Below are positions 38,651-60,131 of a stretch of DNA of 64,000 nucleotides, piece by piece (positions within the stretch are counted from its first letter, which is position 1; each line of letters begins with the position of its first letter). Source of the DNA: Candidatus Zhuqueibacterota bacterium (GTDB lineage: Bacteria > Zhuqueibacterota > Zhuqueibacteria > Oceanimicrobiales > Oceanimicrobiaceae). The stretch lies in NCBI GenBank assembly GCA_029262005.1, contig JAJDAG010000180.1, positions 1-64,000 of the forward strand, in the 5' to 3' direction. The position numbers and the translations under genes are program-made. The notes beneath the pieces were generated by a model. That model was not told the origin of the DNA. It did no database searches and saw only the letters and a program-made list of their open reading frames with translations.

Positions 38651-41293
38651 TTATGCCAAAGGCTCATCACTGTTTTTTTTCCGGTCTTTCGGACTGGCAC
38701 TTTTACGCTTAATTACCAACACCGTATAATCATCCACGGGTAAAAATCCATGGTAAAAATCCTGCAAATCATCTATTAAAGAGCTCAAAATTTCAGATGC
38801 GGCTTTTTCACGCACACTTCGTATGGTTTCAATGACCCGCTCGGTGCTGTAAAAAACAGTGCCTTCGCCGGCATCCTGGCTCTGCCGTGCCGCCTCCTCC
38901 ACACCATCAGTAAAAAATACCATTGCATCCCCATCCTGCAATTTTAATTTGGCGATCTCTAGTGTCTGCTCAAAAAAAACGCCTCCGCGTTCAATGCCAA
39001 TGCCCAAACCGTTTTTCCGTATCTCCTGAATCTCTTCTGTAAAAGACCCAGGCACGAACAGAGGTAGCGTGTGGCCAGCGCGGACAAAGCGAACTGCAGC
39101 TTTGCTTGTATCAAGAATACCAAGAATCGCAGTAACAAACACTTGCCTGTCCATAACGTGGTCGGAAAAATAGCGATTCAAACGGCAGGCAATTTCGTCG
39201 GGTTTATCTGTGAACTCAGGCGAGTAGCGGAGCAAACTGATGAACTGTGCCATATAAAAAGCGGCAGAAGTCCCTTTCCCGGACACATCACCAATGGCAA
39301 ATAAGTATTTGCCACCACCGATTGGCACGACGTCATAAAAATCACCCCCCACCTCATTCGCAGTTTGCAAAGTCGCCGCAATTTCAAATCCAGCTATATC
39401 CGGAAGCTTGCGGGGCAGCAGATCGAGTTGCACCTGGCGTGCGATAGCCAACTCATGTTCCAACCGTTCTTTTTCCCGTGCTTCATCAATGGAAACGCTT
39501 AATCTACTACTCATCTGGTTAAATCGATCGGCCAGTTCGACAAACTCATCTTTCCCCTCAATATGCAGCTTGTAATCAAGGTTGCCTGCGGAAATTTCAT
39601 GAATACCGTCTTTCAACTGACGAAACTTTTGTACAATCATTTTGTTGATTTCAGCGCCGAATTTCACCATACGTCGCGTCACCGAATAATTTACAACGGA
39701 GTAAACCAACGCCAGCAAAATCATGTAACTCAGTAGGGGTTTGCTAAACATATCAAAGCCCGGTGCCATTAAAATATCAAAAGCAAAAAAACCTGCCGGC
39801 TGCAAACGATGATCGAGGACATCGGCAATAACGCGGCCAATAGCCAAATTTCTGTTATTTAACAACTCACGGCTTATTGCCTCTTCTATTGAGTTTCGCT
39901 CCCCGGTGTGCAGGCCGATGGCTGCTGTGACTGCATTTTCGCTACGTCGAGAAAACAGAGCAAAGGGGAAAATATGAAATTTTCGCCATGCAGAACTGAT
40001 GCCGACGTGGCTCGAAAAATAATAAAGATACGACTCCCAATTGGGCGGCTGGTAAGGATAAGCAACCAACTGCGAGCCCGCCAGAACCGCGGTCTGTTTT
40101 GCCACAACCGCAATAAAACTTGAGTCCAGCCTGACCAGATAGAGTTGTTCGCCCCCCGCTTCATCCTGACTGTTCTCTTCTGTTTTAAAAACAAAATAGT
40201 CTGCTGCTGTGCTGTCGCTCCATCCATTTGCCTGTTCAATTATCAGAGTCCCTTCACGTGGAAAGTCTCCTTGAAAATCGAGCGGTCGATAACCGGGTAG
40301 TTTAATTTCAGCCACACCGTCCAGATTCAACTGAACCCAATATTGCGGTGGCGCAACTTCACCGGAAGCAATCAAATCGATGGTTCCGAATATAGCTTTT
40401 CGGACTTTTTCAGCCTGCCAACCTGCCATAAAAAGATAGAAAATAATAACTAACATTGTCGCCTGAATAAGCTGGGGAAATGTCGACTGAAAAAACGTCG
40501 ATATCGCCAGTTTCCGGGAAAGGCTGGCAAAATTGTAGACCAAAACAATCGGAATTTTAACGAGAATAGCGAGCAAATACAGCTTGAAGGCCGTGACCGT
40601 CAACCAGGGGGCGCCATACAAAAGATGCGACTCAATGACTCGCTGCGCGCCCTCAATTTTGAACGGCTCCCAGTTAAGTACACCGCGGAAAAGTAAAATA
40701 CCGGCAATTAAGTAAAGCCAGCACTCTGCCTGCGTCAGCTCCTCAAGCCATTTCGTCCTTCTCAAGAAGAAAATAAATAAAACAAGCTGCACGATATAGG
40801 CAGGAATAAAGCCACCACTTTCTACTATTCCAATAGCCGCCCAGGCGATAAGTGTAAAAATGACAAGCGGACGTTTCTTGTCCGCCTGATTCATCAAGAT
40901 GAGAGTCCCGACACCTAGCACCGACAGTGCCATCGTATTGAGGTGAACATGGGCAAGAAAGGCGGTGAGTTGCGTATCAGATGTACTGTAAAAATATCTG
41001 AGAATAGCCGAATCGAGCGAAAATAGCAAAAAGAGCAAACCGACAATTAATTCAAAAGGCGGTTTTAATCTGGCAATCAGCGCCCGGATCAAAATCAACC
41101 ACATTACAAAGTGTATTACAAAAACAGCTCCGCCAAACTCCCGGGCAATATTGGCAGGAAAAAAGAAGAAATAAAAAGTGAGCAGCCAAAGAGGAAAATA
41201 TAGGAACAAGCGAGAATTAGAGATATTTTGAAGGTTTAGCTTCTGCACGAAGTCTTGAAATCTCAAGTGTAGACTGAAATCATGTCTTTTCAT
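38651..41293 (-). CDS. Membrane-anchored SpoIIE/RsbU-type PP2C phosphatase
   Basis: 880 residues. The first 300 hold about eight hydrophobic helices, followed by an extracytoplasmic stretch (about 300-520), a further helix (about 530-550), HAMP (about 555-615) and a PP2C SpoIIE domain (about 620-860). Catalytic metal-binding motifs are visible: EVGGDFYDVVPIGG, AIGDVSGKGTSAAFYMA, RAGHTLPL, FFTDGVEEA and DDYTVLVI. Such enzymes dephosphorylate STAS anti-sigma-factor antagonists. No STAS or kinase gene is adjacent; the nearest STAS protein is encoded at 45618-46310. The unusually large polytopic N-terminus is not one I recognise. Confidence 0.88.
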   Translation of the reverse strand: MKRHDFSLHLRFQDFVQKLNLQNISNSRLFLYFPLWLLTFYFFFFPANIAREFGGAVFVIHFVMWLILIRALIARLKPPFELIVGLLFLLFSLDSAILRYFYSTSDTQLTAFLAHVHLNTMALSVLGVGTLILMNQADKKRPLVIFTLIAWAAIGIVESGGFIPAYIVQLVLFIFFLRRTKWLEELTQAECWLYLIAGILLFRGVLNWEPFKIEGAQRVIESHLLYGAPWLTVTAFKLYLLAILVKIPIVLVYNFASLSRKLAISTFFQSTFPQLIQATMLVIIFYLFMAGWQAEKVRKAIFGTIDLIASGEVAPPQYWVQLNLDGVAEIKLPGYRPLDFQGDFPREGTLIIEQANGWSDSTAADYFVFKTEENSQDEAGGEQLYLVRLDSSFIAVVAKQTAVLAGSQLVAYPYQPPNWESYLYYFSSHVGISSAWRKFHIFPFALFSRRSENAVTAAIGLHTGERNSIEEAISRELLNNRNLAIGRVIADVLDHRLQPAGFFAFDILMAPGFDMFSKPLLSYMILLALVYSVVNYSVTRRMVKFGAEINKMIVQKFRQLKDGIHEISAGNLDYKLHIEGKDEFVELADRFNQMSSRLSVSIDEAREKERLEHELAIARQVQLDLLPRKLPDIAGFEIAATLQTANEVGGDFYDVVPIGGGKYLFAIGDVSGKGTSAAFYMAQFISLLRYSPEFTDKPDEIACRLNRYFSDHVMDRQVFVTAILGILDTSKAAVRFVRAGHTLPLFVPGSFTEEIQEIRKNGLGIGIERGGVFFEQTLEIAKLKLQDGDAMVFFTDGVEEAARQSQDAGEGTVFYSTERVIETIRSVREKAASEILSSLIDDLQDFYHGFLPVDDYTVLVIKRKSASPKDRKKNSDEPLA

Positions 41294-45617: not shown

Positions 45618-46310
45618 CTAGGTAAAAGTTCTTTGCTTAAAGTATGAAACCCGCTTCTTTTTTGAAGCCAGATTGAGTTGCTTAAGATGCCTTCTCATTT
45701 CGAACCAACCAAGTTTAATATTGCCAAATCTTGGTGTATTCAGCGCCTTAATCAACTGGAAGAGGCCGGCATCCGGGTGCTCCACGACAATTTGTTGTAG
45801 TTTTTCTTCAATCGATTGATGTGCGCCATCATTGCCGTTGTAGCTAGCGCTCGGCATTTGCGCAACTTGTGCCTCTGCCTGCGGTTGAGCGACTGTTCCA
45901 ACTCCGGCATTTTCCTCCTGCCGAAGCGGTGGTTGTAGCGCCGGGCTTGCAGCATTTTTACTAAAGTCCGTTATGGCTTCATCAAGCGTATCATATGCCA
46001 TAAGTATATAATGAAATTCGAGCAACTCAAAAACTTCATAAACATCCGGGATCATTCTTATGAGTTTCAAGTCACCGTGATTCTCCCTAATGCCCTTTAT
46101 TTCACTAATAAAAATACCCCATCCAGCACTGCTGATATAATCAACATTACCGAGATCGATAACAATATTATATCTACCGGATTTTAGTAAATTGGACAAT
46201 GAGTGCTCAAGTTCAGCAGATGTGGTGGTATCGATATAACCACCGACCTTGATCACCGAAATATTTTGGCCTGGGCCAACTGTTTCGACAGATACCTGTA
46301 TACCTTCCAT
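45618..46310 (-). CDS. STAS anti-sigma-factor antagonist with C-terminal winged-helix-like domain
   Basis: 230 residues. The STAS domain (about 1-115) has the phospho-acceptor site in YISSAGWGIF (Ser60/Ser61), as in SpoIIAA and RsbV. A Pro/Gln/Ala linker (about 118-165) leads to a C-terminal domain (167-227) that aligns without gaps to residues 730-775 of the phosphatase encoded upstream: HP-x2-G at 178-182 and LNT at 190-192. That domain looks like the winged helix of transposase/integrase N-termini. AGGAG precedes the ATG by 7 nt. I infer a partner-switching protein that may also bind DNA or the phosphatase. A target sigma factor is not in the window. Confidence 0.87.
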   Translation of the reverse strand: MEGIQVSVETVGPGQNISVIKVGGYIDTTTSAELEHSLSNLLKSGRYNIVIDLGNVDYISSAGWGIFISEIKGIRENHGDLKLIRMIPDVYEVFELLEFHYILMAYDTLDEAITDFSKNAASPALQPPLRQEENAGVGTVAQPQAEAQVAQMPSASYNGNDGAHQSIEEKLQQIVVEHPDAGLFQLIKALNTPRFGNIKLGWFEMRRHLKQLNLASKKKRVSYFKQRTFT

Positions 46311-46433
46311 GGGTAGCTCCTAAAGCAATTTCTAAATGGTTCAGGATTAACGGTTCGAAATATACTATAAAACGTGTAAAAAGTCAATAGCTAGAAGCTA
46401 TTACTTGCGTATAGATATTTTGTCCGTTAAAAA

Positions 46434-49400
46434 TTATATAAGACGCACGGCCTTTCTGATTTTATCCTCAATATCGGCTCTATCTGGACTCAACTCAATT
46501 ACTTTCTTCCACTCACCGACAGCTTGCCTATATTCACCGCGATTGGCATAAATGACACCCATATTCTCATATGCTGTAATGTCTGCCGGATCGATTTCCT
46601 TTACTTTCTGATATTCAATCGCAGCCTCATTGTACATTTTGTTGCGAAAATATGCATTACCGAGAATACTATGTGCCTCTTTGTAATCAGGGTAGGTATT
46701 TATCACCCTTTTAAATTCCTCAATGGCCATATTATAGTCATTCTCTTTGTAATGTTTTATGCCATCAATAAGAATAGTCTCGCGATCCTGAACGGCCTGA
46801 TGCGCCGACTTTCCATTTCCGCCTGCTTGTTGAGCCTTCGTAGTGTCGCTCTCCGCTGCTGCATTGGTTGGGATTGAATCAGCCGTTTGATCATGTGGCT
46901 TTTCACCCTGAGAAGACTCAACAACATCATGATCAATATCGATTGAATTGTTTGCTTGTTGAGAGGGCTCAGTTACATAAACTATTTCCTCATCAATTGC
47001 CTGAATTAAATCTGAGAAGGAAACCGTATCTTCATCTTCATCCATAAATGTCGGTGGCGAATCGACAGAGTCACTTTCAGTCCCAGCACCAAAATCATCT
47101 CCAGAATCTGTACCTGCAAATTCCGTCTCACCAAGCAACTCATCGATGGATGATGCGGTCAATGACGACTCACTATCACCAAAGTCAATATTTGCTACGG
47201 GCGCAACATCTTCTTCATGGGCATCCTGCTCAGCGATATTCTCTGAATTAGCCGGCAAAACATCCTGCAAGTCATCGGCAATACCTTGCATCTCCGGCTC
47301 TACAGGTGTATCGGCTGCTTGTTCTGCGGTTGCCGAGTCGAAGTCAAAATCATCACTCTCGTCAGCATTAATTTCTCCGCTATCAACAAAAAGTTCTTCA
47401 AACGAAAAATCGTCAAGAAGTGATGTCTCCTCACCTGCCTGAGCAAACTCAGCGAGACCAGTGTCATCCGGGGCGGTCATGAGTTCGTCTGCACTGACCG
47501 CAAAAAAATTTGGTTCAGAGTCAGGTGCCTTGTCAGGCTTATCGTCAAAATGTACGTCTTCCTGTTCGGGTAAATCACTTTCGCTCTTAGAAAGCTCACC
47601 GGTATCGGCCAAAAGATCCTCAATTGGGACATCAATAAAGGCTTCTGTCTGGAAGTCGGAAACCACTTCGTCTTTTAGGGGTTCTTCCTGTTTTTGTGGC
47701 TTTACAGGAACCTCATCTTCAGCACGAGGCAATGGCGGCACATCCTGGGCAGTCCCCAGGCCATAATCAGTTTGTACTTTCTCCTGTACCATAACCTTGC
47801 CATCAAGCGTCATAAACGGTGTGCCAGGCGCCTTTATCCGTCGATTACTGCGCTTCGCTTTGGAAATGTAGGCTTCGCGCAGCGCCTTGGTGTTTAGACG
47901 GCTACGAACGAGTTCATCATATATTCTGTTTTCGCTAATTTCAGCAAAACTGTATTTCTCGGTATTGAGTTCCTCACGAATCCGCGCAGCCCCATATTCA
48001 GGATGATTCCCAATAATATCAAATATTTTGCTCTTTTCTTCGATACTAATGTGCTTCGCCTCAACAGCAATCGAGTCATCAACCTCAAAAGCATCTATGC
48101 CCTTTTCATCAAAGACCTTCTTATACTTATTGTAATACGCGTAAGTGGTCAGATTGGCCTCCCGGCAGGCATCTTTGATACTCATCCCATCACCAATATG
48201 CTCATGTACCTCTTTTGCGCGCCTTAGTTCATCTTCCTCCTTAGTAGATTCCTCCTTAATTGTGACGAGTGTGATATCGTCGTATTGAGGACTACCCTCG
48301 GTAAATGAGTATATGCTGTCCTTAAGCCGCTCAACAAATTGGTCTGCCGGCAAGTCTCCGTAATCCGAGAGCGTTTTCTGCAAGCGTTCCTCGCCATACA
48401 ACTGCCGGCTAGAATTCATCGCCTCGGTAATACCATCCGTGTATAACAAGAGGATATCGTCTTTTGCCAATTGGATAGTATCGGACTCGATCGAGTTGCG
48501 GAAATAATCGCGATCGGGAAGCTGCACACCGACAGGAAAGCCTTTGGGATTCAGATAATAAGTACTCTTCTTGCCTCCCCGATATAGAATCATTGGGTTA
48601 TGGCCGGCACTTGCGTAGTTCACGCGACGACGCTTAGAATCAATAATCAAATAAAAGACGGTAACAAACATGCCTTTTTTAATGTCATTGCTGACAAAAG
48701 CATTGACACGCGCAAGAACTTCTGCCGCGTCGTGAACGCCCCGTGCCTCAGTTCTTAGAGCTGTTCGAATCATTGTCATCACAAGAGAACCCGGCACCCC
48801 TTTTCCCGAAACATCCGCGACAACAATGCCAAGCGTATCTTTGTCAACTTCAACAAAATCGTAGTAATCACCGCCCACCTCTTTCGCGGCTTCATAAAAC
48901 GCTGCGATTTGGTATCCCTCCAACTCAGGGAACTCCATTGGGAGCAAGGTTTGTTGAATCTCCTGGGCAACCTGCATTTCCCGCTGCAAGCGTTCCTGAT
49001 CAACGAGATTTTTCTGCGAGTCTCGGAATTTGGACTGAATATCACTGAAGGCCCGGGCGATTTCACCAATCTCAGTGGACGCGTCAATGTCCATTTCGTC
49101 TTCCACTTCATCGTGCCCAATATTCTTAACCCACTCGGAGAGCTTGCGAAATGGATTCATAACCAGATAGATCAGCAAAGCCACCCCAACATAACTCATG
49201 CCAAGAATAAAAAGCGCAAGTTGCAGGCTATCGAAACGAATGGAATATATTTCAGACGCTACTTTGTTATCAGAAAAATAGATATGTGCTTTTCCGTAAA
49301 CAACACCCAACTGCTTTATAATGACGGGGATTTCAATCTCATAAAATATTTCTCCACCAACGGCGAGAGAGTATTTATATATACCTTGAGAAGTTTTTTC

Positions 49401-50195
49401 AGCATTTTCAGGACGAGTGAACTCACTGAGAATCTCACTCACATTGCTGCTATAGACAATAACACCCAGACTGTCCTCGACGGAGATACGGGCAATTTGT
49501 TCCTTGTATTCTTCCTCAATAGGAAAAACGATATCTTCAACAAACGCAAACTCTTCAGCTTGTGCCAGGCCGATACGGTGGACGATTGTTCTGGAGGTTG
49601 CTTGGGAGACTGAAATGAAATTTGAAATCAGTTCGTCATCGGTCTTTAAAAAAAAATAAAAATAGCCTAAAGCAATGAGAAGCGTAACGATGCCGATAGC
49701 GCGAAAAAAGTATTTGGCCTTAATGGAAAAGGGAATAGTGCCAACAGACTTGAACAGCCCGGCCTTAACCGGCTTATCGCGATATTTGGTAATGCGTAAC
49801 TCATTGCCCTCTTCGGTTTTGCGATAATCAATTTCGTCCATCAGCTTACGCATTATGAAAATGCCAAGCCCACCCTTTTTGCCAATATCGATGTACCGAT
49901 TTAAATCAGGATCTTTGACCCGTTTAGGGTCGAAATACATACCCTGATCGATAATACTAAGAGTAAGGCTGTTTCTCTTTACGATGGCACGGATGGTTAT
50001 AGAGCCTTCCGCATCGCGGTAAGCGTGCCGTATTATATTTGTGGCAGCCTCATCTACGGAGAGCTTGAATGCATTGACAACTTTGTCAGAGAACCTGTGT
50101 TTTCGCCCCAATTCGGTGACAAAATCGCGCAGATCTCCCAAGTAGTCAATATGCGCGGGGACTCTTAGTTCTTGTTTTTCTACACTACTAAACAT
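46434..50195 (-). CDS. RsbW-like ATPase/SpoIIE phosphatase fusion with transposase-like HTH domains and TPRs
   Basis: 1253 residues. HATPase of the RsbW/SpoIIAB type (1-140) has N-box DEAATNIIRHAY, DQGMYFDP and GKKGGLGIFIM. Then a helix (163-183), an extracytoplasmic sensor (184-322), a helix (323-347), HAMP (347-400) and a PP2C SpoIIE domain (405-650: EVGGDYYDF, VVADVSGKGVPG, SAGHNPM, LLYTDGITEA). Residues 655-700 look like a transposase HTH (DACREANLTTYAYYNKYKK) and 717-785 like a winged helix. A low-complexity acidic part (about 820-1130) leads to TPRs (about 1140-1253). It could both phosphorylate and dephosphorylate a STAS protein; the adjacent STAS gene is the natural partner. The downstream gap is 123 bp. 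Confidence 0.85.
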   Translation of the reverse strand: MFSSVEKQELRVPAHIDYLGDLRDFVTELGRKHRFSDKVVNAFKLSVDEAATNIIRHAYRDAEGSITIRAIVKRNSLTLSIIDQGMYFDPKRVKDPDLNRYIDIGKKGGLGIFIMRKLMDEIDYRKTEEGNELRITKYRDKPVKAGLFKSVGTIPFSIKAKYFFRAIGIVTLLIALGYFYFFLKTDDELISNFISVSQATSRTIVHRIGLAQAEEFAFVEDIVFPIEEEYKEQIARISVEDSLGVIVYSSNVSEILSEFTRPENAEKTSQGIYKYSLAVGGEIFYEIEIPVIIKQLGVVYGKAHIYFSDNKVASEIYSIRFDSLQLALFILGMSYVGVALLIYLVMNPFRKLSEWVKNIGHDEVEDEMDIDASTEIGEIARAFSDIQSKFRDSQKNLVDQERLQREMQVAQEIQQTLLPMEFPELEGYQIAAFYEAAKEVGGDYYDFVEVDKDTLGIVVADVSGKGVPGSLVMTMIRTALRTEARGVHDAAEVLARVNAFVSNDIKKGMFVTVFYLIIDSKRRRVNYASAGHNPMILYRGGKKSTYYLNPKGFPVGVQLPDRDYFRNSIESDTIQLAKDDILLLYTDGITEAMNSSRQLYGEERLQKTLSDYGDLPADQFVERLKDSIYSFTEGSPQYDDITLVTIKEESTKEEDELRRAKEVHEHIGDGMSIKDACREANLTTYAYYNKYKKVFDEKGIDAFEVDDSIAVEAKHISIEEKSKIFDIIGNHPEYGAARIREELNTEKYSFAEISENRIYDELVRSRLNTKALREAYISKAKRSNRRIKAPGTPFMTLDGKVMVQEKVQTDYGLGTAQDVPPLPRAEDEVPVKPQKQEEPLKDEVVSDFQTEAFIDVPIEDLLADTGELSKSESDLPEQEDVHFDDKPDKAPDSEPNFFAVSADELMTAPDDTGLAEFAQAGEETSLLDDFSFEELFVDSGEINADESDDFDFDSATAEQAADTPVEPEMQGIADDLQDVLPANSENIAEQDAHEEDVAPVANIDFGDSESSLTASSIDELLGETEFAGTDSGDDFGAGTESDSVDSPPTFMDEDEDTVSFSDLIQAIDEEIVYVTEPSQQANNSIDIDHDVVESSQGEKPHDQTADSIPTNAAAESDTTKAQQAGGNGKSAHQAVQDRETILIDGIKHYKENDYNMAIEEFKRVINTYPDYKEAHSILGNAYFRNKMYNEAAIEYQKVKEIDPADITAYENMGVIYANRGEYRQAVGEWKKVIELSPDRADIEDKIRKAVRLI

Positions 50196-50203
50196 CGTCT
50201 CTC

Positions 50204-52234
50204 TTACTGTGCCAATCTACTTTTAACACGATCTATTGCATCAAGTATTGTTTTGTTATAAGGCTGCTCTAGGCGAACCTGCTCCCAAACCTTCAATGCT
50301 TCCGCATATTCTCCCTTTCGATAAAAAGCAACTCCACGGGAGTATTTCACTCTGAGATTAGCAGGCATTTGCTGTACTGTTGCAACCGCTCTTGCCTGGG
50401 CCTCCTCATAGTACTCAAGGGCCTTTTTATCTCCAGGCCGGCTCTTAACTGCTGCCTGGAAAGCGTCAGCCGCTTGCCTCCATTGCTTTTCAGCGTACAA
50501 ACGCACGCCTTCCCTATATTTTTGCTCATAACTGAGTTGACTTTGGTACCGTCTTATGCGACTTTCAACCTGTTTTCTCTCGCTGTCAGAGAGTCCGGAG
50601 CCACGGACGCTGTTGAGCACATCCAAAGCCTGCAGGTATTGACTGCGGGTTGCCAGTGCATCAGCTTTTTTGATGGTTGCACGAATGTTTCCCTGTAACT
50701 GTTTTTCGGCTATTTGAATATCTTTCTCGAGTTGCAGCTTCACCTCTGCCAACCAACTCGGCAATTTAGATAGGTTGGCGCTGTTTATTCGGTCTATCGA
50801 CTGCTGCCATTGGTTTAAAGCTCTGGTGTAAAAACCACCCTTAAAAAAGGCATTGCCCTTCTCTTTATGCTCCAAAATAAAATCTTGCAGAGACTTTTCA
50901 ATAGCTGACTGCTTTGCTTCCAGGATAATACGCTTTTGTTCCACACGCTGGACAGAGTCGCTGCGCACATCGGCCAAAGTCAAAAAACTCTGTGCTTCCT
51001 GTATAGAGGAATTGGCAGTTTCCACTCGCATGTTGGCCTCAGGATCATCGGTCACCTGACCACGCAAACGCATTGAAATCTCCTGCATTGACTCAGCCGA
51101 TTCCAGTGCATTGGAAAAATCAACAAACGCACCAAGATAGTCCTTTTCGTAGAACTTGGTCCGCCCACTCTCAATGCCTTGGTTGAAGTCGGTTTCAGCA
51201 TTAAACCACAGCTCGTTTTCAACCCTGATTTGTAAAGTGCGTTCTTGTTGTTCTTTTGCAACGCGCCTTACCTCTGACCGCGTCCGACCAATGTTAAAAG
51301 TGATCGAAAAACGGTGACCAGAGTCAAAATCGGCACCGTCAAAAAAGCGGCCGAAGTTATAATCAATCAGAAAATTTTTGTATGTTGTTCCGGCACCAAA
51401 TGCCATCTGGCCGGCATTATAACCAACACGTAAACTCGCGACGCCACGAAAAGAATACTCTGAGCCAACATGATATGTTAAAGACGTCTTTTCACCCTCG
51501 TTAAAATCAAATAATACTCGAAGTGCATTGCCTTCGCCAAAGGCCACAATTTTGTAAAATCCCGCTTTAAAGTTAAGCGGGATTTTCTCAGTCAAGTCAA
51601 CCAGGCGTTTTCTAGACGAAATAAGATTTTGAATGTTCAGTCCAAAACCAACGTTCCGTAAAAGACTACTATCAAAGGCGGGTCGGTAAATGACTCCAAA
51701 ATCGATGCCGATACCGGAGTCACCCAAATTTCCAAAGGTGTAAGATTGTCTTTGTATTTTCATACTGCCACCCAAGCTCAATGACTCGCGAATTTGCTTT
51801 GCATAGGAAAAATAGAATTCATTCTCACTATAAGAGCCACTACTACCCAGAACTGCCTGGCCGGAGTATTCTTCAACATTATCCGTTCCGACTCTGGACC
51901 AGCCAAAACCAAAAGTACCAAAAGACAGCGTGGGGTAAGCAGCGCCAAAGAAGCTGTAATTTATACCGTACTGAATACCCGTGTAGTAAAAACTGGCACT
52001 TTTTCTTTGCATATAATCAAGGCCGGCCGGGTTCCAATAAACCGCAGTCGGGTCATCGGCAAGGGCTACAAAAGCGCTGCCAAGCGAAAGTGCACGTGCA
52101 CCAACACCACCCTCGACAAACAAACTGGCCGTACCCCCATCCCCGCTCTGCGCATTTACCGCGCGGAAAGTTACCATAATAGTAATAAAGGCAAGGCCTA
52201 AAGTCAATAGATTTAAAAGTTTTCGATTATTCAT
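50204..52234 (-). CDS. PorV/PorQ-like outer-membrane protein with C-terminal TPRs
   Basis: About 676 residues from the ATG at 52234, 1 bp after the giant gene's stop; a TTG at 52246 would overlap it. Signal peptide about 1-28 (ending FRAVNAQ). Residues about 35-320 match the PorV/PorQ/UPF0164 barrel family: GARALSLGSAFVALADDPTA, VYWNPAGL and FGTFGFGWSRVG. The C-terminal half (about 340-676) is helical with TPR-like units such as GVRLYAEKQWRQAADAFQAA and GVAFYRKGEYAEALKVWEQV. PorV shuttles type IX cargo at the outer membrane. Here it lies directly after a giant exported protein with a C-terminal sorting domain, so it may handle that protein. The phosphatase gene follows after 8 bp. Confidence 0.8.
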   Translation of the reverse strand: MNNRKLLNLLTLGLAFITIMVTFRAVNAQSGDGGTASLFVEGGVGARALSLGSAFVALADDPTAVYWNPAGLDYMQRKSASFYYTGIQYGINYSFFGAAYPTLSFGTFGFGWSRVGTDNVEEYSGQAVLGSSGSYSENEFYFSYAKQIRESLSLGGSMKIQRQSYTFGNLGDSGIGIDFGVIYRPAFDSSLLRNVGFGLNIQNLISSRKRLVDLTEKIPLNFKAGFYKIVAFGEGNALRVLFDFNEGEKTSLTYHVGSEYSFRGVASLRVGYNAGQMAFGAGTTYKNFLIDYNFGRFFDGADFDSGHRFSITFNIGRTRSEVRRVAKEQQERTLQIRVENELWFNAETDFNQGIESGRTKFYEKDYLGAFVDFSNALESAESMQEISMRLRGQVTDDPEANMRVETANSSIQEAQSFLTLADVRSDSVQRVEQKRIILEAKQSAIEKSLQDFILEHKEKGNAFFKGGFYTRALNQWQQSIDRINSANLSKLPSWLAEVKLQLEKDIQIAEKQLQGNIRATIKKADALATRSQYLQALDVLNSVRGSGLSDSERKQVESRIRRYQSQLSYEQKYREGVRLYAEKQWRQAADAFQAAVKSRPGDKKALEYYEEAQARAVATVQQMPANLRVKYSRGVAFYRKGEYAEALKVWEQVRLEQPYNKTILDAIDRVKSRLAQ

Positions 52235-52235
52235 A

Positions 52236-55200
52236 CTACTTCGCAACCGCTATTTTTGTAACGGCTGTTCCTTGACTTGTCTGTATCACAGCCACATAAA
52301 CACCGTTAAGCACTTTGTCGCCACGATCATTTCTACCATCCCAATCAACATCTTTGTCATGATTCCCTGCCTGCGCCTGCTCATCAGAGCCGGCAAAAGA
52401 ATAGCTCTTTACCAGGCGGCCAAGCAAAGTATATATCCGGATACTGACATCTGAGGCTTGCGATAAATTATAATTAAAATAAGTTTTGTCTGCGTTGGAG
52501 CTACCAAATGGATTTGGATAGTTAAAAAAGCTTGCATTTAGTTCCGGGTTAACCAAAACAAACTTGCCGGCATCAAAGGCAGCGTTCAGGGTACGCTGCA
52601 AAGAGTCGTCCCTGATAATAACAAAATCCGGCGAACCAACAGGCCGAGCCAGTATGTCACCTTGAGGGCTTGCGAAAATGGCTTTGAAACCCGTCAGCTC
52701 TGTTTCAGCATTGACATCAACCAAAAACTGAATCGCCTCGGAGTCCGACGATGCGATACTCAAGGGACCAAAATTTAACTGCACCGGATTTGAGCTGACT
52801 GAAGAAGTTCTTAAATGCTCAACACTTAAGTTGTCATAGTCTGTAACACGTACACTGGAAATAATACTGCTTGGTGCAATATCGCTGCCATCCGGGTCCT
52901 GAATCGTCAGGTTTATCCGTTCCAGGTTAATAATTTCAGTGGTGGTGTTTTTAAATTTTAAACCGAATAAATGTAAGTCCGTTGCGCCCCGAACGACCGT
53001 TGTTGGCCGCTTGCTACTTAAGACAGCAACATTCAACCCGATGGCCTGAGTAAGAACAGTGGTTGAGATTGCCGCCGGATCCGGCGTTATTTCTACGAAT
53101 TGATCAAGATTATTTTCATCCAATGTTCCACGGTCAAAAACACGAACAGTAATGCTGCGGTTCGTCACCGGTTCCGTGGGCGCATCAATCTCCCAGGACG
53201 GAGAAAAACCGGGTGCAATAGGCTGAGAAATGGCGCTCGAGGTTGTGTACCCGGCGCCGCCCGGCAATTCCAGGCGCACACTGTCCTCACCGACAACGGC
53301 AGCCTCGCCGCTCTTGCTAAGTGAGGCTGTAAGAGTAAACCTTTGCCCCACAGTCAAAAAATTGTCTGCGTCGGAATTGCTAACCGCAAAACTCAAAACA
53401 GCCTTTTCCACCACAGTGAGATGCGCCGAGTCAGGCATGACAATGGCGTTGCGCTCAGAGTTATTTAAATCGGTTCCCGTCGCAGTCACCTTCAAAAAAT
53501 CTGACGCGCTCGGAAGATTAGGTGATTGTACCTTCCAGGAAAGCTGAGCCGGACGAACGCCATCAACATCGCCAATGAATTTAGGCAAATCATCGATAGG
53601 AATATATGAGGGCGGTATTTGCAACGAGATGTTTGTGTTTTTAACGTTTGTAATCCTGACATTTGCAGTCAAAGTAAATTGTTGCTCGGTGGACAAAGTG
53701 CCATCTTCAGCGCCAGGCGGTCGCTCAACAAAAACAGTGTCAACCACAACCGTACCGACGTCCCCGGTAACAACGCCGAGGGTCAATCGATCGGTAGCAA
53801 CCCGTGTTGACTGATTGGTGTTTTCATCATCCGGAATCGATGTTATTGTAACCTTGATATCCTGCTGTTCAACCGGAATTGACGGCGCTTTAACTTGCCA
53901 GGTTGTAGGAGTATTCGGCACAAATGCTTTGGAAAGTTGCTCCCCGGCAAGCAAAGATAGTTGCGTCAGCCCCAAATCAAGGGTCAGCACGGCAGCGCCC
54001 TCGACATCAGCAGTTCCTTCATTTTTGACAGTCGCCTGTATTTCAAACTCCTGATCGGCTGAAACCGAGACCGTATTGTTGATTTCAACCAAATCCGTGG
54101 TCAGGCTTTCCAAGTCGAGATTTGCCCGCTCGACAGCCGTGACCACCAACGCTACAGTCGTATCCGGCTGGGTAGGACCAGGCACCAAACCTATGACTTG
54201 AACTTTAAGCGTATCCTGTAGCTCAATATCTTGAACCTGGATGACCCAGTCTTTTACAGTTTCAGCTTGTCCAGCTAAATATTTGGTTGGTGATTCACCA
54301 ATTCTTAGTGCAAACCCGGTTCCGGGTAAAATCAACGTCACCTTAACACTGTCGATATTTGGGGAGCGACTAACATCAATCGCCAGCTGAAATGATTGCA
54401 AAGTTGAAACAATGTTGTTCTGAGCGCCGGCAGGTGTTGTTACCAACAAGCTATTGACAGACAAGCCGACATCTAAAGTTTCGACTAACACCGTGTCGGC
54501 ACTATCACTGACAGTAGCAGCTAAAGCGCTATTAATATCTTGTGGAATTTGTGTGATTCTGGCAAATATCGAGTCCACCGGCATGGTCGAAGCCGGGGCC
54601 TTGACATCCCAACTCACAGGATTACTTGCCGCGAATGGTGCCGGGTTAGGTGTTTGAATCGTATAACCAACAGGAACAGAGAGGGTTAATTCTCCTGTAT
54701 TACCTATACTTGCCTGGCCACTATTACTAACCGTGGCCTCTATCTGAAAAACCTCATCAGCAGTTTGAAATTGGCTGAAGCCGGGCTCAAAGCTCAGAGA
54801 CAAATCGGCCGGCTGTTGAATCCGAACCAGCACGGTGCTGTCGTTTGCAGTTCCAATCAAGGCTTGTTGCTGACTCTGCACTCCGACCGCGCTCAAAACG
54901 CGAGAGGTAAATATCTCACCGATAACGGCATTTTCCAAACCGGAAGCCAAAATGTTAAAATTAATTGTGCCAATTGAATTCGAGGCAATTGTTGCAATTG
55001 TGTCTTGCGGCTTCACAACAGTGGAAGTGCCATCAGTCAGCAGTTGCACAACGACGTTTTCAACCGCTTCTTGCAGATCATTTTTCACTTCGAGTGTAAT
55101 CTGAAAGCTTTGGCCGGTATTCACTTCTGCTTGTTGAGATGAAGCGTTTGGTGTTGCCACATGCGGATTCGTATTAAGCACAGATACGGTGGCATTAGAT

Positions 55201-58200
55201 GATGTGAGTTGAATCGTGCCTAGGCCGATATCATCGCTGGTGTCATCTGAAATTGTATTGCCACCGGAACCAACTACGACGCCGGTTATTTTTCCGGTTA
55301 TCGTGGCTGTTCCTGTTGTGTCACCAGTTATGTCCACAAGAAAATCGAGAGAATCCGTCGTGCCGCTGGCAAGGCGATTGCCACCAGATAACAGTAGTGA
55401 GTCAGGTGGGGCGATTGTGAATTTATTAGTGACATCAGAGGCGCCAATTCTGAATTGAACAAATGTATTTAAATTACTGAAGTCAATATCAACAGCATCC
55501 GGGCTGCCATTAAAAACAGCCATACGCACGCGCCAATCATCGGTCTGCCCGGCGCGAACCGCAGTAACAGTTGTCGGATAGGGTGAAAGTGACTGTATTT
55601 GCAGACTCGAAGTTGCCTCCAAATACCAGGTGTCGGTAAGGTCGGCCCCAGCATCGCTTAAAACAATATTCGCAGCATTGGCATCCTGCCCGGTTATGCT
55701 TGCATCCAAAAAATATTGCCCGGTATCTGCTGAAGCGAGCACAGTAACGGTGTAGTTGAACACACCGGACGCCTGTGCAGCGATACTCGTTGGATTGCCA
55801 CCATCTGCAATAACTGTAAAATTACTGGTTTGATCACTGGCGTTTTTTATAAGTGTAAACTTTGGTTGCGGGTTGTTAACAGCAGCCGCAGCACCGCCGG
55901 CCGGAGCCGGGTTAGAAACGGTTACAGCAATGGCAATACCAGATTGACCATGTTGAACAGTGTCCGGCGTGGTCACAACACTGTCGATTTTGAGTTGAGC
56001 CGAGTCCTGCACGGTCCAAATATCCGGCACGGCCGAAGCAGCCGCAGACACAGGATTTGAGCCGAGCAGACCACTGACATCGCCATTTATCGTTATAGTT
56101 TCCAGAGCAGCACTTGCATTGACATCAACAAGAAATTGCAGACTAACCGTTTGCCCGGCAAGAATAGTAGTAATCAAATCCGAACGAGTGGATGTATAGT
56201 CGGCGTTGCGATTTACTGTCCCGGTAAAATTCAAATTCGCGGTCAGGCCCGTAATCTCCGTGGAGCTCTGATTCGAAACAGACATGGTCACGGCAACGCC
56301 GGTTTGTCCCCGACTTACATTGGTTGGCGTTGTGGAAATTGAATTGATTCCGAGGCTGCCGATTGCTAAAGTCGTGTCGCCGGTGGCGCTGCCACTAACG
56401 CTTGCAGCAATGACCGAAACCGTGCCACTTTCAGTGCCCGCCTGAAAAGTAAAGCTCAATTGACTACTCGCATCAGAGGCAATTTCTTTCGTTGTAGGTG
56501 TTCCCGGATCAGCGTCAACGTCGGTTATCGCCCCGAGCGAAGCGGGAGACAAAGAAATCGTAAACAATGAGCCACTAGCAATCAAATTGCCATCTGCATC
56601 AAAAATAGAAGAAGAGGTAATTAACGATGTCGAAACCCCATCTGCTGCCAGGGTGTCTGGAACTGGCGTAAGCGTGAAGCGCCCCACAGGCTTTCCCGGG
56701 GAAACAGTTATCGTGCCGGTAGAGTCATCTTTTGCGGTTGCATGATCGGCGATAATCTTCCCTGTAGTATTGGCCGTATCGGGACTGAAGGTAAAACTCG
56801 TTCCAGTTGGATTTCCGCTGGCATCAAGGCCGCCAATTGTTCGCCAGGTAACACTGACGTCAGCTACAAAATTATCGCCCGAATCATAACCTGCCGCGTA
56901 AACTGTGGTCGAATCGTCAGTCGTTAGTGAAACTGCGCCGACAGGGCTGCCGCCATTGTTGGCCGCCGTACGCACAACAACGCTATCAACACTTCCTATA
57001 CTAACGGTAATCAATCCGGAGGAGCCATCAATTACTGTGGCATGATCCGCAGTAATGACACCACTGCCAGGGGTTGTTGCTGTAAGTGTGGTGCTTGAGC
57101 CGGTGGACGAACTCAAAGTACCAATTGCAGCTGAAAGCTGCCAATTGATTGCAGATTCATCGGTGATATAGTTGCCGTCGGAATCAAACCCGCCGGCATG
57201 CATAACAAGTTGGTTACCAGGCTGCAGGCCAGTGGCCGGGACTTCAACTGTTTCGCCACTAGCATCACTAAGAACCTTAATGCGATTGAGGGGGCCAACG
57301 CTAACGGAAATCGTTCCAGATACATCTGTTGCACCAGACGCAACATGAGTCGCCCGAATGACTCCGCTTGTGGGGGCCGTTGTAGGCTCGAAATTCAAAC
57401 TTGCCCCAGTTCCTGAAACTGCAGGGGCCAAGTCGCCGGAAGCAGCGCTCCACGTGACGCTTACGTCGCCAAGGTAATTAGTCTGCCCATCATAACTCGC
57501 GGCATAAAACGCTTGCGTTTGATCCGCTGTTAGACCGACCGTCGTAACTTCACTCCCACCGTTATTGGCCTGATCGCGAATTACGATACTGTCAATACTG
57601 CCGGAATTTACTGTAATTGTTCCTGTTGCATCATCAATTGCAGTCGCATGATCGGCAACAATCACACCCGTTCCCGGTGTGCTTCCAGTCAAAGTAGTAC
57701 TGACACCACTGCCTGGAGCAACACTGCCAATCCCCCCTGTAACGCTCCAAGTAACACTTTCATCACTGCGATAATTGCCATCTGCATCATAACCAGAGGT
57801 ATGAACAACAAATGTTCCACCTGTGGTTAATGTGTTCGTCGTAACTTCTGTGGTGGCGCCACTTGCTTGATCGTTGATTCTAACATAACTTAAAGCACCC
57901 GCGGTAACAGCGATTGTTCCTGTGAGATCTGTTCCAACAGCATGATCAGCCTGGACAGAGCCACTCGCTACCGTGGTTGGGTCAAAAACCGTACTTGTAC
58001 CAGAGCCTGTAGAAAGCGTGCCAATACCGTTATTCACAGTCCAGGTTACCGATTCATCGCTGCGATAATTTCCATCAGAGTCGTAGCCTGCCGCATGCAG
58101 TGTCAACGCCTGATCCGTGGTGACGCTGCGGGCCCCCATGTCCGGTCCATTACCACTTCCCCCCTCAACAACAACAATACTGGCTAATGCCCCTGCTGTA

Positions 58201-60131
58201 ATGGTGATTGTCCCTGTGGCATCATCGGTAGCAGTGGCATGATCTGCATTGATAACCCCTGAACCGACTGTTATGGCAGTCAGGGTTGTCGAAGAATTCG
58301 AAGTGGGAGCAACCGTACCTATCCCCCCAGAAACGCTCCAGTTAACGCTCACATCACCAATATAATTACCGTCAGAGTCAAAACCGGAGGCATGTACCAG
58401 GAGCGTTTGGTCAGCAGTCAAACCTGATGTGGTGATTTCAGACGTGTTGCCACTAGCACCAGAGTTAATTCTTACATAACTCAGGGAGCCATCATTTACT
58501 GTTATCGTGCCCGTATCATCGGTGCTGCTTGAGGCAGAATGCGTCGCACGAATAACGCCACTCACAGCGGATGTCGTGGGTAAAAATTCGAAGCTTGTTC
58601 CCGAGCCACTTATGGCAGGCGCCAAACTGCCGGAAGCTGCACTCCAAGTTACAGATACATCAGAGATGAAATTGCTTTGGTCGTCATACGCAGCAGCATA
58701 ATATGTAACTTGATCGTCCGCCGTAATAGTGGATGCACCGACCGCATTGCCGCCATTATCCGGAGCATCACGAATAGTAATACTGGCAACTGAGCCAACG
58801 GTTACAGTAATTGTTCCTGTATCGTCATCATTGACAGTCGCATGATCGGCATGAATAACACCTGTGCCCGGTACCGTTGCTGTGAGTGTCGTACTGGAAT
58901 TTGAGGTTGGGGTGACCGTACCAATTCCCCCGATTACGCTCCAGGTTACAGACTGATCAGTAATGTAGTTATCGTCCGCATCATAGCCGGAGGCATGCAC
59001 GCTTTTGGTCTCGCTCGTTGTCAGGGCATCAGTTGTGACCTCGGCGGTGGAGCCGCTGGCACCATCATTAATTCTAACATAATCCAACGCACCAACGTTT
59101 ACTGTAATTGTACCGGTTGCATCGTTACCAACTGACGAATGAGTCGCAACCACGGCACCTATGGTAACGGTCTTGGCATCAAAGATGGTGCTCGAACCGC
59201 TTGCCGGAGAAACAGAGCCAATCCCACCTGTCACACTCCAAGTGACCGATTCATCAGAGCGATAGTTGCTGTCGGCATCATAACCGGCTGCGTGCAGGGA
59301 CAAAGTCTCATCAGTAGTCATGCTGCGTGTTCCAAAAGCCGCCCCATCGCCGCTTGTGCCTTCAACTACAACAATGCTAGCCAAGGCACCGTCAGCTACT
59401 GTAATTGTGCCCGTTTGATCAGTATGCCCGGAACCATCGTCAACCGTGACCACACCGGTTCCCGTACTGGTAAGGGTCAACGTTGTGCTACTGGCCGTGC
59501 CACTAACCGTGCCAATACCACCGATAACCGCCCACGTCACAGGCGATACATCACTCACAAAATTGTCATGAAGATCACGAGCAACAGCAAAAAACTGTTG
59601 AGCATCATCGTCCGTGTCTGTGGAAAGGGTTGTTATTTCACTACCACCTCCGCCAGCAGCGTCCTCAATCAAGATTTTACTGATAGCACCTACTACTATT
59701 GTTGGCTGGAAAGACTCTAAAGGAGCGCCACCACTGGTTGTCACGGTAAGTGTGTAAGTGTTTGGTGTCGTCGGATTCCGCACAGTGCCGATCGCCACAG
59801 TAAACGTGTTTCCCAGGAGAACATTGTTGCCCGTGCCATCACGCGTAAAAGTAACCGCCTGCCCGGAGGGTGTTGCTGGACCGAAACCACCGGTAATATT
59901 TGTCCCTGCCGAGGCAATCATAGTCGTCGGCAAAACATATCCGCCCGGGAATGTAATTGTGACGGTGCCTGTAGGCGCAAGATCACTTCCTAGAGTAATG
60001 GATAATGTGTAGTTGGTAGTAGCACCTACGGTACTATTATCCGCTGTGGCCTGCGCAAACATAAGATGCGGAATCAAGAAAAGAGGCAGAAAAGCAGTAA
60101 AGATAATTCGCTGTTTACTTATTTGCACCAT
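52236..60131 (-). CDS. Giant secreted repeat protein with Ig-like repeats and type IX-like sorting domain
   Basis: 2631 residues. Signal peptide 1-27 (ending LMFAQ); a beta domain about 28-150; ten Ig-like repeats of 98-101 residues at about 150-1146, each with a core such as DSDGNYRSDESVTWSV. An invasin-like module (about 1147-1260) and CARDB-like and further repeated beta modules (each with a W-x-V-x-AP strand) follow. The C-terminal 95 residues start FFNYPNPFGSS and include IRIYTLLGRLVKSY and NGVYVAVIQTSQG, a FlgD-Ig/type IX-like sorting domain. D-x-D-G-N in the repeats suggests calcium binding. It is likely a surface fibre or adhesin. Its stop is 1 bp before the PorV-like gene. Confidence 0.85.
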   Translation of the reverse strand: MVQISKQRIIFTAFLPLFLIPHLMFAQATADNSTVGATTNYTLSITLGSDLAPTGTVTITFPGGYVLPTTMIASAGTNITGGFGPATPSGQAVTFTRDGTGNNVLLGNTFTVAIGTVRNPTTPNTYTLTVTTSGGAPLESFQPTIVVGAISKILIEDAAGGGGSEITTLSTDTDDDAQQFFAVARDLHDNFVSDVSPVTWAVIGGIGTVSGTASSTTLTLTSTGTGVVTVDDGSGHTDQTGTITVADGALASIVVVEGTSGDGAAFGTRSMTTDETLSLHAAGYDADSNYRSDESVTWSVTGGIGSVSPASGSSTIFDAKTVTIGAVVATHSSVGNDATGTITVNVGALDYVRINDGASGSTAEVTTDALTTSETKSVHASGYDADDNYITDQSVTWSVIGGIGTVTPTSNSSTTLTATVPGTGVIHADHATVNDDDTGTITVTVGSVASITIRDAPDNGGNAVGASTITADDQVTYYAAAYDDQSNFISDVSVTWSAASGSLAPAISGSGTSFEFLPTTSAVSGVIRATHSASSSTDDTGTITVNDGSLSYVRINSGASGNTSEITTSGLTADQTLLVHASGFDSDGNYIGDVSVNWSVSGGIGTVAPTSNSSTTLTAITVGSGVINADHATATDDATGTITITAGALASIVVVEGGSGNGPDMGARSVTTDQALTLHAAGYDSDGNYRSDESVTWTVNNGIGTLSTGSGTSTVFDPTTVASGSVQADHAVGTDLTGTIAVTAGALSYVRINDQASGATTEVTTNTLTTGGTFVVHTSGYDADGNYRSDESVTWSVTGGIGSVAPGSGVSTTLTGSTPGTGVIVADHATAIDDATGTITVNSGSIDSIVIRDQANNGGSEVTTVGLTADQTQAFYAASYDGQTNYLGDVSVTWSAASGDLAPAVSGTGASLNFEPTTAPTSGVIRATHVASGATDVSGTISVSVGPLNRIKVLSDASGETVEVPATGLQPGNQLVMHAGGFDSDGNYITDESAINWQLSAAIGTLSSSTGSSTTLTATTPGSGVITADHATVIDGSSGLITVSIGSVDSVVVRTAANNGGSPVGAVSLTTDDSTTVYAAGYDSGDNFVADVSVTWRTIGGLDASGNPTGTSFTFSPDTANTTGKIIADHATAKDDSTGTITVSPGKPVGRFTLTPVPDTLAADGVSTSLITSSSIFDADGNLIASGSLFTISLSPASLGAITDVDADPGTPTTKEIASDASSQLSFTFQAGTESGTVSVIAASVSGSATGDTTLAIGSLGINSISTTPTNVSRGQTGVAVTMSVSNQSSTEITGLTANLNFTGTVNRNADYTSTRSDLITTILAGQTVSLQFLVDVNASAALETITINGDVSGLLGSNPVSAAASAVPDIWTVQDSAQLKIDSVVTTPDTVQHGQSGIAIAVTVSNPAPAGGAAAAVNNPQPKFTLIKNASDQTSNFTVIADGGNPTSIAAQASGVFNYTVTVLASADTGQYFLDASITGQDANAANIVLSDAGADLTDTWYLEATSSLQIQSLSPYPTTVTAVRAGQTDDWRVRMAVFNGSPDAVDIDFSNLNTFVQFRIGASDVTNKFTIAPPDSLLLSGGNRLASGTTDSLDFLVDITGDTTGTATITGKITGVVVGSGGNTISDDTSDDIGLGTIQLTSSNATVSVLNTNPHVATPNASSQQAEVNTGQSFQITLEVKNDLQEAVENVVVQLLTDGTSTVVKPQDTIATIASNSIGTINFNILASGLENAVIGEIFTSRVLSAVGVQSQQQALIGTANDSTVLVRIQQPADLSLSFEPGFSQFQTADEVFQIEATVSNSGQASIGNTGELTLSVPVGYTIQTPNPAPFAASNPVSWDVKAPASTMPVDSIFARITQIPQDINSALAATVSDSADTVLVETLDVGLSVNSLLVTTPAGAQNNIVSTLQSFQLAIDVSRSPNIDSVKVTLILPGTGFALRIGESPTKYLAGQAETVKDWVIQVQDIELQDTLKVQVIGLVPGPTQPDTTVALVVTAVERANLDLESLTTDLVEINNTVSVSADQEFEIQATVKNEGTADVEGAAVLTLDLGLTQLSLLAGEQLSKAFVPNTPTTWQVKAPSIPVEQQDIKVTITSIPDDENTNQSTRVATDRLTLGVVTGDVGTVVVDTVFVERPPGAEDGTLSTEQQFTLTANVRITNVKNTNISLQIPPSYIPIDDLPKFIGDVDGVRPAQLSWKVQSPNLPSASDFLKVTATGTDLNNSERNAIVMPDSAHLTVVEKAVLSFAVSNSDADNFLTVGQRFTLTASLSKSGEAAVVGEDSVRLELPGGAGYTTSSAISQPIAPGFSPSWEIDAPTEPVTNRSITVRVFDRGTLDENNLDQFVEITPDPAAISTTVLTQAIGLNVAVLSSKRPTTVVRGATDLHLFGLKFKNTTTEIINLERINLTIQDPDGSDIAPSSIISSVRVTDYDNLSVEHLRTSSVSSNPVQLNFGPLSIASSDSEAIQFLVDVNAETELTGFKAIFASPQGDILARPVGSPDFVIIRDDSLQRTLNAAFDAGKFVLVNPELNASFFNYPNPFGSSNADKTYFNYNLSQASDVSIRIYTLLGRLVKSYSFAGSDEQAQAGNHDKDVDWDGRNDRGDKVLNGVYVAVIQTSQGTAVTKIAVAK
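56694..59684 (-). repeat. Ten-copy tandem array of about 300-bp coding repeats
   Basis: Ten units of 98-101 codons inside the giant gene start at about residues 150, 250, 348, 448, 549, 649, 747, 847, 947 and 1048. By their first strand the units fall into types V (SIVVVEG), N (YVRIN) and D (IRD or similar). Units 2-5 run V-N-D-N and units 6-9 repeat V-N-D-N, so a block of about 1.2 kb appears duplicated. Confidence 0.8.

Follow-up and report, generated by a model that had tools for sequence, protein, structure and literature searches.

Why should both partners of a bacterial phospho-switch carry the same transposase-like domain, and could such a switch act on DNA directly, without a sigma factor? 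The question is raised by two neighbouring minus-strand genes in a 64,000-nucleotide stretch of Candidatus Zhuqueibacterota bacterium (GenBank assembly GCA_029262005.1, contig JAJDAG010000180.1, positions 1 to 64,000; hereafter the window), which encode a membrane kinase-phosphatase and, after a gap of 123 bp, a STAS protein. An earlier note on this DNA had described a transposase-like winged-helix domain in both proteins. We find that a helix-turn-helix (HTH) domain is indeed shared by the two tails and is fixed across the phylum (Calditrichota/KSB1), and on balance we lean, from sequence comparison, towards the tailed STAS proteins being phospho-controlled DNA-binding regulators of surface and exopolysaccharide genes that would work without sigma release. 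The genes and their tails are placed as follows:

45618..46310, minus strand: STAS-HTH protein of class A, 230 residues; an orthologue or paralogue has been found in 60 of 60 relatives searched, and the tail in 80 of 80 named loci.
45621..45815, minus strand: C-terminal HTH tail of the STAS protein, residues 166-230, strongly basic (BLASTP, profile-profile comparison, AlphaFold2, charge).
46434..50195, minus strand: membrane kinase-phosphatase with HTH tail and TPRs, 1253 residues (Pfam domain content).
48102..48227, minus strand: first HTH of its tail, residues 657-698, DACREANLTTYAYYNKYKK (AlphaFold2 helices; HTH_28 in 28 of 38 orthologues; aligns with the first HTH of IS481).
47850..48044, minus strand: second HTH of its tail, residues 718-782, homologous to the STAS tail (BLASTP, profile-profile comparison, AlphaFold2).

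Residues 178-223 of the STAS protein had been aligned in the earlier note without gaps to residues 731-776 of the enzyme, and this alignment is true letter by letter at all positions named there: H178 P179 x2 G182 pairs with H731 P732 x2 G735, L190 N191 T192 with L743 N744 T745, F195 with Y748, L209 with L762, and K217 x2 R220 x2 Y223 with K770 x2 R773 x2 Y776. The shared domain as a whole comprises STAS 166-230 and phosphatase 718-782. BLASTP of the two tails only has given E=4e-6, and a search of the relatives with the phosphatase tail has recovered STAS tails at E=1.7e-6 and 2.1e-5. Orthologue alignments of modest depth have been built for the tails of STAS classes A and B (A4), of STAS class C (A2) and of the phosphatases (A3), and all hhalign E-values given here refer to single pairwise comparisons. 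The three pairings of A4, A2 and A3 have yielded E=2.5e-13, 7.3e-12 and 2.6e-13 (STAS tail against phosphatase tail: E=2.5e-13, 98%). With trimmed sets, the second phosphatase HTH has matched the STAS tail at E=4.9e-14, against 0.026 or worse for control profiles (DprA winged helix, STAS domain). Chance similarity of the tails is ruled out by BLASTP, the search of relatives and the profile comparisons with their controls, and an origin of the two segments in unrelated families by the profile-profile comparisons.

Regarding the fold, AlphaFold2 has predicted the same four helices, in the same order and spacing, in both tails (predicted local distance difference test scores, pLDDT, of 77 and 82.5). 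They lie at positions 13-23, 29-36, 48-57 and 63-75 of the STAS segment and at 63-75, 81-88, 100-109 and 115-127 of the phosphatase segment, in which helices 2-13, 18-24 and 29-43 are predicted to make up the preceding HTH. One transposase-like domain in both tails and an additional HTH of IS3/IS481 type in the phosphatase had been put forward before, and both have withstood the comparison, the former as a single family related to IS481/IS3 with one predicted helix order, the latter by its predicted helices and by a register with IS481 that runs over both HTHs. The term winged has to be given up: the models of both tails consist of helices and contain no beta wing or strands in the shared domain, so that a true winged helix finds no support in them, and because no wing is predicted the domain is, as modelled, a plain HTH plus a fourth helix.

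The kinship of this domain has been traced with the NCBIfam IS481 model NF033577, which matches phosphatase residues 659-789 (E=3.4e-5) with profile positions 2-125 of 284, and a class C STAS protein at 448-526 (E=3e-6). It also hits the phosphatase tails of most of the 60 relatives, where E-values typically range from 1e-6 to 3e-13 and no match leaves the region of about positions 1-127; real transposases in the same search have been matched over the catalytic half too. By hhalign, the phosphatase tail aligns with true IS481 proteins in register over both HTHs (E=2.4e-6; controls 0.083 and 0.34), and transposase profiles from related genomes have paired STAS-C with IS481 (1.8e-8) and STAS-A/B with IS3 (5.5e-6). 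Pfam HTH_21 and HTH_32 match many members of the tail groups below the curated cut-offs, HTH_21 being found in 28 of 38 phosphatase tails, 16 of 47 STAS-A/B tails and 6 of 11 STAS-C tails; the window's own STAS tail, searched alone, has matched no Pfam family. The homology covers the N-terminal two-HTH region of the IS481/IS3 transposases. The DDE catalytic domain is missing, the matches ending near position 125 of 284 and the remainder of the enzyme consisting of an acidic linker and TPRs. Judged by these comparisons, both tails are one family, either derived from the DNA-binding half of IS481/IS3 transposases or sharing its origin. As the tails come without the catalytic half and are fixed across the phylum, we infer a domestication of transposase parts, as had been suggested in the earlier note. 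An active transposon remnant at the locus has been rejected on the missing DDE region and the gene order conserved across the phylum. In a tree of the 60-residue domain, phosphatase, A and C tails separate and A and B tails stand together; the direction of descent, and one as against several fusion origins, are not readable from 60 columns.

A profile of all tails matches 81 of 82 genomes of the phylum, and 49 of the 49 of good quality, the commonest copy number being three per genome (STAS-A, STAS-B and the kinase-phosphatase). Among named genomes, 80 loci have been recovered by a scan, most of them under the labels Calditrichota or candidate division KSB1, and all have the tail at E<1e-17; the other labels on a few of them may reflect mis-assigned metagenome-assembled genomes (MAGs). 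Gene neighbourhoods, here and below, have been read from draft MAGs: the kinase-phosphatase lies directly 5' of the STAS gene on the same strand in 73 of 73 scorable named loci. In one few-contig genome (L048, G044:C5:968000-987000), neither STAS-A nor the kinase-phosphatase is contained in a single reading frame, which could be due to sequencing indels or to real breakage.

The enzyme is composed in the order HATPase, transmembrane segment, sensor, transmembrane segment, HAMP, PP2C, HTH, HTH and TPR, of which the parts outside the HTH tail are placed as follows:

49785..50159, minus strand: RsbW-like serine-kinase domain HATPase_c_2, residues 13-137 (Pfam PF13581, E=5.2e-29; NCBIfam RsbW models).
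49155..49712, minus strand: two transmembrane segments (residues ~162-184 and ~325-347) around a predicted periplasmic sensor region (hydropathy).
48255..48842, minus strand: SpoIIE/PP2C phosphatase domain, residues 452-647 by Pfam extent (PF07228, E=6.9e-50).
46473..46769, minus strand: C-terminal TPR repeats, residues 1143-1241, behind the acidic linker (Pfam).

The kinase domain has retained an intact N box (DEAATN) and the DQG and GGLG motifs, and thus the N box and G boxes of GHKL kinases. The phosphatase domain has the metal-binding aspartates of the SpoIIE/RsbU type, with GGDYYD (441) just before the Pfam domain and DVSGKG (461), TDG (586) and DDITLV (639) within it. Kinase and phosphatase are therefore, by motif, both intact and combined in one protein, and the earlier designation as a phosphatase, correct for the PP2C domain, has left out the N-terminal RsbW-like kinase. 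HAMP, at residues 341-383, has been found below the Pfam cut-off (E=0.0011). The TPR part is missing or shortened in many orthologues, and we regard it as an add-on because alignments from Calditrichia often stop near residue 803-840, soon after the HTH unit. A conserved motif, KPPGTPxLTLDG (residues 790-803, window ~47787-47828), follows immediately after the second HTH in most orthologues. The window's family also has a second kinase-phosphatase paralogue of 1640-1990 residues (L042:4758-10268 on G000:C39; L129-L132), which has retained the STAS-like HTH but apparently not the first one. Another membrane-bound SpoIIE phosphatase, which has HAMP and lacks the HTH tail, is encoded in the window itself at 38651-41293 on the minus strand.

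One reading of the enzyme tail takes it for a nucleic-acid sensor that controls the enzyme instead of an output domain, comparable to the activation of the kinase CapK by single-stranded DNA (ssDNA). CapK likewise has an N-terminal HTH and is ssDNA-activated, and yet the groove predicted to take up the ssDNA runs between its GHKL and STAS domains instead of over the HTH (PMC13373217). A transmembrane sensor region is already part of the enzyme studied here, and we consider a sensory tail very improbable.

The STAS protein is built from a STAS domain at residues 15-112, a variable linker and the basic tail at 166-230, with two further features:

45975..46268, minus strand: STAS domain, residues 15-112 (Pfam PF01740, E=3.1e-15; TIGR00377, E=6.7e-17, over cut-off).
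46128..46130, minus strand: Ser61, predicted phospho-acceptor, in the motif ISSAGWG (motif conservation).

The motif Y[IV]SSAGWG occurs in 80 of 80 class A loci, and the serine is retained in every class B and class C protein counted. Ser61 stands at what we take to be the position of SpoIIAA Ser58, as placed from the known SpoIIAA sequence, and the protein thus combines the STAS fold with the conserved phospho-acceptor serine of anti-sigma-antagonist-like proteins. Several STAS proteins without a tail are encoded in the same genome as the switch pair. The STAS tails have mean charges of +7.6 (class A) and +11.3 (class B), with near-invariant lysine or arginine where helix 3 ends and helix 4 begins, and this basic character supports DNA binding by the STAS tails.

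Candidate targets have been suggested by the neighbours of the paralogues. STAS-B, of which the window's genome has its own copy (G000:C113:38028-38738, L041), lies on one strand between glgA/galT-like and Wza/Wzc-like export genes in 22 of 22 loci, the identity of these neighbours being set by similarity to the genes of L041 and checked with family models for some of them only. It is the first gene behind a gap of 200-670 bp in its operon, and 20 of the 22 gaps contain a sigma-54-like promoter with at most one mismatch (1.75 expected); farther 5' stand TGTTTC-N6-nnACA repeats, in many cases at a spacing of 18 bp:

L041:8740-9049, and the gaps in L047 and L099-L118: STAS-B upstream sites, consisting of the sigma-54-like promoter and the repeats.

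By their sequence, these sites look like those of a sigma-54 activator or like a STAS-HTH operator in front of a polysaccharide-export operon. The palindrome TTGTTTC-N6-GAACAA, at one mismatch, shows no enrichment across the window's genome (15 sites, 16 for the reversed control) and is consequently unusable for defining a regulon. Its count in genome G012 has been inflated by an identical repeat: there, the string TTGTTTCTTTTTTGATCAA is present in more than 25 identical copies over many contigs, probably belonging to an interspersed repeat or an insertion element. STAS-C proteins (500-760 residues; L119-L124, L133-L138) have an N-terminal STAS domain, a long acidic and proline-rich linker and a C-terminal HTH, whose recognition helix, SRSTVYRWLR, is of textbook type. 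All 12 STAS-C loci lie in a polysaccharide cluster, usually between chain-length-determinant and tyrosine-kinase-like genes. No consistent sigma-54-like site has been found near STAS-C or the window operon. The paralogues and the neighbouring genes suggest a role at the cell surface.

Around the window's pair, the following features have been found:

46359..46387, minus strand: sigma-70-type promoter-like site TTGACT-17-TATATT, in the 123-bp gap 5' of the STAS gene (10/12 match).
50204..52246, minus strand: PorV/PorQ-family protein with TPRs, upstream neighbour (NF033709, E=1.3e-34, over cut-off).
52236..60131, minus strand: repetitive surface protein of 2631 residues with a type IX secretion system (T9SS) type A sorting tail, upstream neighbour (TIGR04183, E=4.8e-7, over cut-off).

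A conserved promoter-like site, TTGACTTT...TATATT, is found in 50 of 73 orthologous gaps ahead of STAS-A, where shuffling predicts 17. Genes for PorV-family and T9SS-type surface proteins 5' of the switch pair recur in distant families.

Taking these parts together, we propose that the membrane protein senses an external signal and that its RsbW-like kinase and PP2C domains, in one chain, would phosphorylate and dephosphorylate Ser61 of the STAS proteins. Phosphorylation at the STAS dimer or partner surface would alter dimerisation and DNA occupancy of the STAS-HTH protein, and its occupancy would in turn decide whether operons for the cell surface and for exopolysaccharide are transcribed; proteins of classes B and C are encoded within their own candidate target operons. 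The tail of the enzyme would most likely dock to the STAS tail or contact the same DNA. Domain content, motifs, the invariant serine, tail homology, phylum-wide conservation and neighbourhoods are established from sequence; phosphorylation of Ser61 by the partner, DNA binding by the STAS tail, the target operons and the direction of the effect are what the proposal supplies. A bolder version, in which domesticated HTHs bring both the membrane enzyme and its STAS substrates onto the same DNA, or let them pair there, so that sensing, phosphate transfer and promoter control would be coupled at the membrane without sigma release, appears unlikely to us.

Four observations weigh against DNA-binding regulators of this kind. 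The HTH domain of the phosphatase is approximately neutral (+1.8) with an acidic third helix, which is atypical for a DNA reader; no significant relative has been found in the PDB by sequence or fold, the weak fold matches (many of them HTH proteins) lying at E>=1; class A has no polysaccharide genes alongside; and the sites upstream of STAS-B could belong to an ordinary sigma-54 activator instead of the STAS-HTH protein. The first of these makes docking a serious rival for the enzyme tail: the shared HTHs would pair with their own kind or with each other and bring the STAS protein to the membrane enzyme, DNA binding having been lost and the output being a protein partner, as for SypA. Such pairing would suit a domain found in both partners of one switch, one of them membrane-bound, and the charges fit, with conserved acidic residues in helix 3 on the phosphatase side and strongly basic STAS tails; the second paralogue, moreover, has retained just the STAS-like HTH. 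STAS-kinase and STAS-phosphatase pairs nevertheless usually manage without such a domain, several STAS proteins of the same genome have no tail, the recognition helix of STAS-C remains textbook-like, and most phosphatase orthologues have kept the complete two-HTH transposase-like unit. We consider docking as the sole function possible, if on the unlikely side.

In an ordinary anti-sigma partner switch, the kinase would sequester a sigma factor, the STAS protein would antagonise it, and the tails would do no more than fine-tune or localise. The STAS and HATPase domains are indeed nearest to the anti-anti-sigma and RsbW families. The kinase, however, shares a membrane-bound chain with a phosphatase, no gene for a sigma factor is adjacent, and all class A and B orthologues examined have the tail. 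No SigB/F/G-family member has been found over cut-off in the genome (best match 112.9 bits, cut-off 234), so that a sigma factor of these families is rejected as output and an anti-sigma switch seems quite improbable. The earlier suggestion of a switch without a sigma factor is consequently plausible for the switch itself, although the best-conserved likely target, the STAS-B polysaccharide operon, has a sigma-54-like promoter.

In the open-access PMC papers searched, no account of such an arrangement in Calditrichota has been found, and STAS or anti-sigma proteins are unmentioned in the Caldithrix abyssi genome paper. The closest known systems share parts of it. With SpoIIAA/RsbV, SpoIIAB/RsbW and SpoIIE/RsbU, the switch has in common the STAS, HATPase_c_2 and PP2C domains, in which the phospho-serine and the catalytic motifs are conserved, but here kinase and phosphatase are fused in a membrane protein, both partners have HTH tails, and no sigma gene is linked. 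IS481/IS3 transposases share the two-part HTH, in register with the phosphatase tail and with the second HTH homologous to the STAS tails; the present proteins differ in lacking the DDE half, in the fusion to signalling domains, and in having just one or a few conserved copies per genome at fixed gene orders. SypE of Vibrio fischeri exerts opposing serine kinase and phosphatase outputs on the STAS protein SypA, which controls polysaccharide biofilm; no evidence points to SypA as an anti-sigma antagonist (PMC4517449). By domains and gene adjacency, the present enzyme likewise unites an RsbW-like kinase with PP2C and has a STAS protein as its partner, although SypE is a response regulator, SypA is a bare STAS protein, and no HTH tail has been reported for either. 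Many STAS switches are, as SypA, without a known output; a candidate DNA-binding domain and host operons that hint at targets make a STAS output without sigma testable.

CapS is a STAS repressor with a winged HTH, in which phosphorylation of Ser54 by CapK breaks the dimer and frees the DNA (EMBO J 2026, PMC13373217), which gives the logic proposed here a precedent; a further likeness is the absence of a sigma factor, CapKS targeting its adjacent operon (PMC13373217). The winged HTH of CapS is ArsR/MarR-like, and this description sets it apart from the present tails, which are IS481/HTH_21/HTH_32-like with no predicted wing. CapK is an HTH-STAS-GHKL protein without phosphatase, whereas the present enzyme unites kinase, transmembrane sensor, HAMP, PP2C and two HTHs in a single chain, with no STAS domain in the kinase. 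CapKS has been linked to immune operons; the present switch is fixed in its phylum, with paralogues linked to polysaccharide genes. If our proposal is true, sensor, kinase and phosphatase would be gathered in one protein, DNA-binding parts of a transposase would have entered core signalling, and a second STAS-HTH solution would stand beside CapKS, with a different HTH family and spread phylum-wide instead of scattered over immune islands.

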